64,000 nt of DNA from Pseudanabaena sp. PCC 7367 (GTDB lineage: Bacteria; Cyanobacteriota; Cyanobacteriia; Pseudanabaenales; Pseudanabaenaceae). The DNA lies in the NCBI RefSeq assembly GCF_000317065.1, contig NC_019701.1:1178001-1242000 (forward strand), in the 5' to 3' direction. Each line of letters begins with the position of its first letter. Positions within the stretch are counted from its first letter, which is position 1. Both the position numbers and the translations under genes were made by a program. A model generated the notes under the pieces. It did not search any database. It was not told the DNA's origin and was given only the letters and a program-made list of their open reading frames with translations. Shown one piece after another: positions 40,131 through 42,044 of the stretch.

Positions 40131-40298
40131 CATATTAATCGGCTTAATCGGCGCTATTTTTATGATCTGCTACAGCAAACATTACTCGAAGCAAGCCAAA
40201 AGCACCAAGATTGCAGCATTCTTCTGATTGATATCGATGCTTCAAGCATTGTCAATACTTATCAACACCCCAAATGGTCAAGCTTTGGCGATCGGTAA
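40131..40298 (+). pseudogene. Remnant of a GGDEF-domain gene
   Basis: A 55-codon open stretch without a start codon, between TAA at 40128 and TAA at 40296. It encodes RLNRRYFYDLLQQTLLEAS and SILLIDIDASSIVNTYQHP, which align with the first third of a GGDEF diguanylate cyclase domain (consensus LxNRRxF ... LIDIDxFKxxNDxYGH). The GGDEF signature itself and everything upstream are missing. One residue is deleted in the Asn-Asp-x-Tyr turn, and the Phe-Lys pair is lost. It overlaps the last bases of the UmuC-like gene on the other strand. Confidence 0.7.
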
Positions 40299-41633
40299 TT
40301 CGCTCCATGCAGTGGTGTAACGTTGCGATCGTTGTACCTCTTGGCGATCAGTTTGGTGGTTGATTTTTAAACCATCTGCTTTACTAGCCGATCGCAAATT
40401 TGGCTCTAGTTCTAGTTTGGCCTGCTCCACCATGCCAATCAACCTGTTTTCCCGCTGCTTAGTCGATCGCTGCGGCGATTGCCCTAAATCCCATCCCCAT
40501 CCATTGCTGGCAATTGGCTCCCACAGCTTGATGCTGATTTTTTTATAGGCTAAACCAGGCTGATAAACTGCTGTCAGAGCGGCGATCGCCTGCCTGGTCA
40601 AATCGCTCGCATCATTTGTAGGCTGCTCCAGTTTAATCTGGGTAGAGTTGCAATATTGGGGAAGGTGAGCAAGTTGATCGGTCGCTAGAGTGATCGAAAT
40701 GCCGGTAGTTAGTAGCTCTTGGGCATGTAATTTTTGAGCCAGGATTGCCACATAATTAGCCGTAACTTCTTTGAGAAGGGCGATCGAATCGACTGGTTCG
40801 GCAAACGCTCTAAACATTAAGGCCAATTGGCGATCACTGGCGATCGGTTGCAGCGGGTAATGTACCTGGCCATGTAGTTCATCGATCGTGCGGCTCATGC
40901 CAGGATCAAATAAGGCTTGAACTTTTTTCTCTGGCAGCATTCTAAGCTGAAGTGCATTGGTAATGCCGATCGCCTCTAGTTGTTGTGCATAGTAACTATC
41001 AATGCCCCAAATCTTGCCTACTGCGGTTGCGGCGAGGGCTTGTGCTTGCGACGATTTAGTCAAGAGCGAGGTAATCCCGCTGGCAGATTGTTGGGCGATT
41101 TGCTGTGCCACTTTGGCCAGAGTTTTGGTGGGAGCAATGCCGATCGAAATGGGAACTCCAATCCATTGGTTAATTTTGCGTCGTATTTCCTGCGCATAGT
41201 CACTAATCGAGATGGCATCAGGCATCAGCACTGGTTCACCAGTAAAATTGTCAGTTGTTTGAACCGGGGCGATCGTAAGCTCCAGCCATGCTGCATGTTG
41301 GTCATAGATTTCTAACTCTGGGCAAAATTGCTGGAGAGCAGACATCACCCGATTGGAAATATCAGCATAGAGCGATGAATTTGCCCCATGCACAATCACA
41401 TTATATTTTTCGCTATGTTTTTCACGTTGTTTTTGAATTATGGCTTCGACCTGGCTCAGGCACATACCTGGATTAATGCCAAGAGACTGCGCTGCTGGCG
41501 ATCGCGCTACCACCCAACCCCGATTACCTGAGATGATTACAACTGGTTTTCCCACTAAGGCCGGATTAAAAATTTGTTCGCAATTGATCAAAAAATTGTC
41601 ACAGTAAACTAAGGCAAATAGTTTCGCCATCAT
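40278..41633 (-). CDS. umuC: UmuC-family Y-polymerase homologue lacking catalytic residues
   Basis: A 451-residue UmuC homologue recognised by CDNFLINCEQIFNPALVGKPVV-type N-terminus, RVMSALQQFCPELEIY, SIGIAPTKTLAKVAQ, the little-finger region and the C-terminal RYTTAWSELPIAKA of DUF4113. Active-site positions are altered: the first metal-binding Asp is Tyr10, the Asp-Glu pair of the SIDE motif is His113-Ala114, and the aromatic steric-gate residue is Leu15. The clamp-binding QxxLF segment is not evident. The frame is intact, so polymerase activity is probably lost while a structural or regulatory role persists. It is downstream of the UmuD-like gene. Confidence 0.88.
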   Translation of the reverse strand: MMAKLFALVYCDNFLINCEQIFNPALVGKPVVIISGNRGWVVARSPAAQSLGINPGMCLSQVEAIIQKQREKHSEKYNVIVHGANSSLYADISNRVMSALQQFCPELEIYDQHAAWLELTIAPVQTTDNFTGEPVLMPDAISISDYAQEIRRKINQWIGVPISIGIAPTKTLAKVAQQIAQQSASGITSLLTKSSQAQALAATAVGKIWGIDSYYAQQLEAIGITNALQLRMLPEKKVQALFDPGMSRTIDELHGQVHYPLQPIASDRQLALMFRAFAEPVDSIALLKEVTANYVAILAQKLHAQELLTTGISITLATDQLAHLPQYCNSTQIKLEQPTNDASDLTRQAIAALTAVYQPGLAYKKISIKLWEPIASNGWGWDLGQSPQRSTKQRENRLIGMVEQAKLELEPNLRSASKADGLKINHQTDRQEVQRSQRYTTAWSELPIAKA

Positions 41634-42044
41634 TCCTAACCCTGATTTAATTACTACAAATTAATAATGTTGTGATGATTCAGATATTCAGTTTTGGGGC
41701 ACTTGCAAGTGGAGAAAGTTTAGCTATAGCAGGATTATGCGATCGCTCTAAACATAGCTAGCAATGACATAGGGGTATTTTATGGATGTTCTTTAAGCTA
41801 GTGATTCAAAATTAGATTCCATAAATTACATTCCATAACTGAACAGCTTAGCCCCAGATTTCAAGAAATCTTAGAACGAATAGCTAACTAGAGCAGGATT
41901 TTGCTTGGCATCTTGCTTGGCATTTTGTTCAGGCTGAGAATCAAGCGCAGGACGCTCTAGCACCAGATTGCGATCGGCACTGTAGCAGGAATTAAGAACA
42001 ACACTAAAACTCTTGCTGATTGCTAGAATACTGCGCTTCAGGCA
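41634..42044. other. Spacer between umuD-like and umuC-like genes
   Basis: About 410 bases. A frame in phase with umuD stays open for about 57 codons past its stop, but it lacks a start and a family match, so it is taken as chance. No terminator was found between the two genes. Confidence 0.45.

Follow-up and report, generated by a model that had tools for sequence, protein, structure and literature searches.

The window analysed here, a stretch of 64,000 nucleotides from Pseudanabaena sp. PCC 7367 (G000), carries a umuC-like gene and, adjoining it on the same strand, a gene for an S24 autoprotease (Table 1). The umuC-like frame is open across all of its codons with zero internal stops, and its product is a full-length UmuC-type sequence with Pfam IMS and IMS_C matches of 96 and 41 bits, respectively; a UmuC-type fold is also predicted. 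It is the only Y-family protein of the 4.89-Mb genome. The catalytic Asp and Asp-Glu carboxylates of UmuC are absent from this protein. In alignments with relatives from the same order and of 87 cyanobacterial sequences, Tyr10 takes the place of the catalytic Asp, His113-Ala114 that of the SIDE Asp-Glu and Leu15 that of the steric-gate residue, and the 87-sequence alignment places GNRG where the NNDG motif is expected. When the protein was aligned with solved structures of the Y family, Dbh among them, Tyr10 and His113-Ala114 mapped as before, which rules out that the carboxylates are masked by misalignment. The preliminary description of this DNA had claimed a full-length UmuC without catalytic residues, and domain matches, alignments and structure mapping agree with it; as for carboxylates elsewhere in the protein, the solved structures put Tyr, His and Ala at the catalytic positions themselves.

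Table 1. Features of the umuC-like gene and its S24 neighbour (positions in the window)
Feature	Position	Strand	Remark
Catalytically dead umuC-like gene, 451 aa	40278-41633	(-)	sole PF00817 match of the genome
C-terminal putative UmuD'-binding tail, residues 433-451, ...RYTTAWSELPIAKA	40281-40337	(-)	79% identical to G001 UmuC
Region replacing the clamp motif (QxxLF) and RecA-NT motif of intact UmuCs, residues 373-432	40338-40517	(-)	both motifs lost
His113-Ala114 codons, replacing the SIDE-motif Asp-Glu (IYDQHAAW)	41292-41297	(-)	alignments and structures
Leu15 codon, steric-gate position (Tyr/Phe in intact UmuCs)	41589-41591	(-)	alignments
Tyr10 codon, replacing the first catalytic Asp (ALVYCDNF)	41604-41606	(-)	alignments and structures
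S24-umuC spacer, 411 nt	41634-42044	(-)	no minus-strand sigma-70-type promoter match (consensus scan)
S24 autoprotease, 204 aa	42045-42659	(-)	no other S24 protein detected in this genome

The changes in the window UmuC are concentrated in particular functional modules. Among 55 columns that are each at least 95% conserved among intact UmuCs, 35 are kept and 20 are altered, namely 7 of 8 in the active site, 6 of 7 in the clamp/RecA-NT region and 7 of the remaining 40 (Fisher p 3e-4 and 1e-3 for clustering of the losses, with columns grouped into modules after the alignment had been seen and the module definitions themselves taken from the literature). On these counts, the earlier statement that flanking residues are well conserved is correct only in part. 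At the position of the clamp motif GWGWDLG is found, and the conserved M, D, N, G and W columns of the RecA-NT motif are altered. Identity of this region to the intact UmuCs of the relatives G001 and G005 is 12-17%, compared with 43% between G001 and G005, and over the clamp/RecA-NT block it is 12% for the window-G001 pair versus 43-44% for intact pairs. The last 19 residues show the reverse, with 79% identity between window and G001 proteins versus 50-63% for intact pairs. UmuD' binding has been assigned to the last ~28 residues of UmuC, of which L418-K422 add a strand to UmuD', and RecA binding to the first part of DUF4113 (PMC6511836, PMC11791011). The Pfam DUF4113 match, nearly complete in the UmuCs of G001 and G005, is restricted in the window protein to positions 36-50 of 51, which correspond to the UmuD'-binding tail. 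The window UmuC thus retains a C-terminal tail with a putative UmuD'-binding function, as assigned in these papers, and the DUF4113-type end that had been described as kept is kept in this half; its RecA-NT half is missing, as is the clamp motif.

The S24 neighbour has a UmuD-like core in which the Ser (GESM), the Lys (TVKRL) and the Ala-Gly cleavage site are intact, and it carries a conserved basic N-terminal arm (MARGGKREGAGRPKGSGKYGEPTKAVRVP). Both arm and core match the stand-alone S24 protein of relatives, which is its orthologue and occurs even in G030, a genome with no Y-family match. The gene had been taken for umuD; it is instead the orthologue of the stand-alone N-arm protein, and a canonical umuDC operon is ruled out by the arm, which is that of the stand-alone paralogues. 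Because of this orthology, canonical umuD appears to have been lost from the window genome, in which a whole-genome search detected no LexA-type S24 protein and no S24 match other than the umuC neighbour. Stand-alone S24 proteins whose basic N-terminal arm is conserved (ARGGKR.GAGRPKGSGKYGE.TKAVR.P) are encoded by several Pseudanabaenaceae (L156-L161, in addition to the window copy) and are possibly DNA-binding regulators; their neighbours are conserved only between close relatives, and the stand-alone paralogues share no neighbourhood with the window.

It is likely that the window umuC itself has been kept by selection, given its intact reading frame and predicted fold, normal codon usage, clustered losses and conserved tail. 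Codon usage lies within the normal range of the other window genes, at the low end. When neutral point mutation was simulated up to 36% changed residues, none of 1000 frames stayed free of stops, and neutral change of the size seen here would create ~9-10 stops; at 10% change, 6% of the simulated frames stay stop-free, and a recent loss following long functional divergence would be missed by this simulation. The protein is predicted to have an intact Y-family fold (AlphaFold pLDDT 84; target TM up to 0.87 for matches to Dpo4-DNA complexes). No close relatives of the window protein, and no orthologues sharing Tyr and His-Ala, were found in GTDB genome contigs, and in a plasmid search all matches stayed under 60% identity, with ~37% for the top one. 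As there is no close orthologue, dN/dS is unavailable for the window gene, and recent decay has to be weighed. In that case Pol V would have been lost and constraint relaxed, with the frame open by chance and the tail and fold as leftovers, which we regard as a serious but rather unlikely alternative. It would fit the very long branch of the window UmuC in quick trees (~2.2-2.5, or roughly 2.3, changes per site versus 0.2-0.5 for G001 and G005), which exceeds the genome-wide speed-up seen in DnaE (0.33 for G000 versus 0.13 for G001 and 0.08 for G005), as well as the loss of several functional modules and the non-detection of canonical umuD and LexA in the genome; changes at 20 of 55 otherwise invariant columns are also what a relaxed gene might show. 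However, 451 codons without a stop or shift contrast with the number of stops expected under neutral change, the changes are clustered and not spread, and the tail is conserved up to its end. Moreover, the only plainly decayed Y-family copy of the survey (G121) carries 7 stops, and a dead UmuC of related species is strongly selected.

Of 390 genomes of the class that were screened, 204 have a Y-family match. The best match is weak in the window genome, in the three related species G002-G004 and in a few genomes holding fragments or a stop-riddled copy; a widespread dead UmuC in cyanobacteria was rejected on these grounds, within a screen that would overlook dead copies in genomes that also have an intact UmuC. 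Direct inspection of ~80 cyanobacterial UmuCs, which included a sample of those of Prochlorococcus and Synechococcus read residue by residue, found the D and DE intact, and among inspected cyanobacterial UmuCs catalytic residues are lost only in the window genome and G002-G004. In the latter, the first Asp is replaced by Ala and the Asp-Glu by Gly-Arg or Asp-Arg, the RecA-NT motif is kept, and the clamp motif and UmuD tail are lost, with a DUF4113 match that covers only positions 4-33 in G003 and no match in G002. Between G003 and G004 the dead umuC has a dN/dS of 0.055 (0.012 in the RecA-NT part), which is approximate because dS is high (1.25); five genes nearby have ratios of 0.024-0.098, a span that includes this value. 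The dead UmuC of G003 and G004 is under strong purifying selection. The earlier suggestion that selection has kept a non-polymerase UmuC is therefore well supported for the G002-G004 lineage and likely for the window gene. No S24 (UmuD/LexA) protein was detected in the G002-G004 genomes, and RecA was found in all four genomes.

The DnaE phylogeny favours two separate catalytic losses, and the UmuC tree is compatible with one. In the DnaE tree, G000 groups with G001 and G005, both of which have an intact UmuC, and G002-G004 are set apart by a 100/100 branch, so that two losses are the simpler account. Alternatively, the window and G002-G004 proteins could share a single non-catalytic ancestor and form one ancient dead-UmuC subfamily, with which any function would fit. 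A quick UmuC tree that forces the two together is statistically acceptable (p-AU 0.237), but the DnaE topology, the differing replacement residues and the reciprocal retention of C-terminal motifs make a common origin improbable.

We hypothesize that the window UmuC is a former Pol V catalytic subunit that no longer polymerises and acts by binding a cleaved S24/UmuD' protein, a proposal for and against which we see the chances as evenly balanced. Upon DNA damage, the adjacent S24 protein would self-cleave at Ala-Gly, and the cleaved dimer would capture the dead UmuC via the conserved tail, with the UmuD' arm perhaps also lying in its palm/little-finger cleft. The complex could then hold primer ends or lesions without extension, or serve to titrate cleaved S24 protein; both outcomes would give a Pol V-like complex without mutagenic synthesis, closer to the UmuD2C checkpoint role than to translesion synthesis. 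That the sole S24 protein detected in the genome adjoins umuC on the same strand, with its protease residues intact, is counted in favour; counted against the putative binding of the two is that the neighbour is a non-canonical partner with an orthologue in the UmuC-less G030. In G002-G004 the partner would be RecA, as the separate dead UmuC there has kept RecA-NT. More broadly, we propose, with confidence falling slightly short of even, that Pol V was converted at least twice independently to selected non-polymerase proteins within one cyanobacterial family, with a different binding module in each case, a selectable non-synthesis function of UmuC and no DnaE2-type partner. Ever since the UmuD2C checkpoint became known, it has been proposed that UmuC does more than translesion synthesis. 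For E. coli, a function of UmuD2C apart from translesion synthesis has been described (PMC4045847); it sets a precedent for a role of this kind and is no proof for the window UmuC.

Inactive Y-family proteins are established, many of them tied to DnaE2, and in a 2026 census those without catalytic residues are dispersed or in diffuse groups (PMC12926913). An adaptor or decoy that directs another error-prone polymerase to the replication fork would have its precedent in ImuB and other inactive PolYs of DnaE2 complexes (PMC6511836, PMC12926913), but is a very doubtful reading here. No DnaE2, DinB or LexA was detected in the window genome, which makes such an adaptor unlikely, and a DnaE2/ImuB-like system was rejected since there is only one DnaE. 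In addition, adaptors of the ImuB type depend on their clamp and RecA-NT motifs, and the window protein has lost both, which also argues against an ImuB-type scaffold at the replication fork. For the earlier suggestion of a regulator of another polymerase there is no candidate, since the genome has a single Y-family protein, a single DnaE and, beyond these, only a PolB-like ORF that stays below threshold. This ORF (L191:843-2738(+), G000:C2 ~3991342-3993237) encodes a divergent B-family polymerase-like protein of 631 aa, has a Pfam DNA_pol_B match slightly under the cut-off and is possibly derived from a mobile element. That the window UmuC is still a polymerase, or another enzyme, with different metal ligands is hardly credible, as Asp12 (YCDNF) and Asp111 (IYDQHA) are nearby but out of register with the structure-mapped positions, which hold Tyr, His and Ala, and changes also affect NNDG and the steric gate.

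The window protein resembles E. coli Pol V UmuC in its full-length homology, its predicted palm/fingers/thumb/little-finger fold and its putative C-terminal UmuD'-binding tail, but has no catalytic carboxylates, aromatic steric gate, clamp motif or RecA-NT, and its gene neighbours a stand-alone-type S24 protein. Like ImuB/iPolY of DnaE2 mutasomes, it is a Y-family fold with a disrupted active site; in contrast to these, it is UmuC-type, no DnaE2 is seen, and the RecA-NT (ImuA/RecA-binding) and clamp motifs are lost. With the E. coli UmuD2C checkpoint complex, which is marked by UmuD binding and by a slowing of replication upon damage, it may share a UmuC function apart from translesion synthesis, via UmuD binding, although the UmuC of E. 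coli has catalytic competence and interacts with the clamp, whereas the window protein has no clamp motif. In the main text of open-access papers, no account of a dead cyanobacterial UmuC was found; the 2026 census may already list the protein as inactive. With natural lineages whose sole Y-family protein has no catalytic residues, one of which shows clear purifying selection, a non-synthesis role of UmuC becomes directly testable, and the reciprocal loss of RecA-NT and UmuD tail separates its two binding functions. A protein annotated as 'Y-family DNA polymerase' need not be a polymerase.

Other observations concern UmuD and DnaE of relatives. UmuD homologues adjoining an intact UmuC in G117 (L162:4307-4690(+)), G200 (L163:5849-6256(-)) and G043 (L164:6057-6410(-)) have an ATG right at the cleavage site (M-SFPAP) and no longer carry the Ser and Lys of the protease; from their sequences they look like genes encoding UmuD' directly, with upstream TTG/GTG starts as a possible alternative. 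In G014, the UmuD beside an intact UmuC (L067:7920-8369(-)) has kept the cleavage site, with the catalytic Ser replaced by Pro and the Lys by Arg. The DnaE domain match of G005 (G005:C5:463694-465742) is split by ~1.2 kb inside an open frame of 1591 aa, in an intein-like manner.
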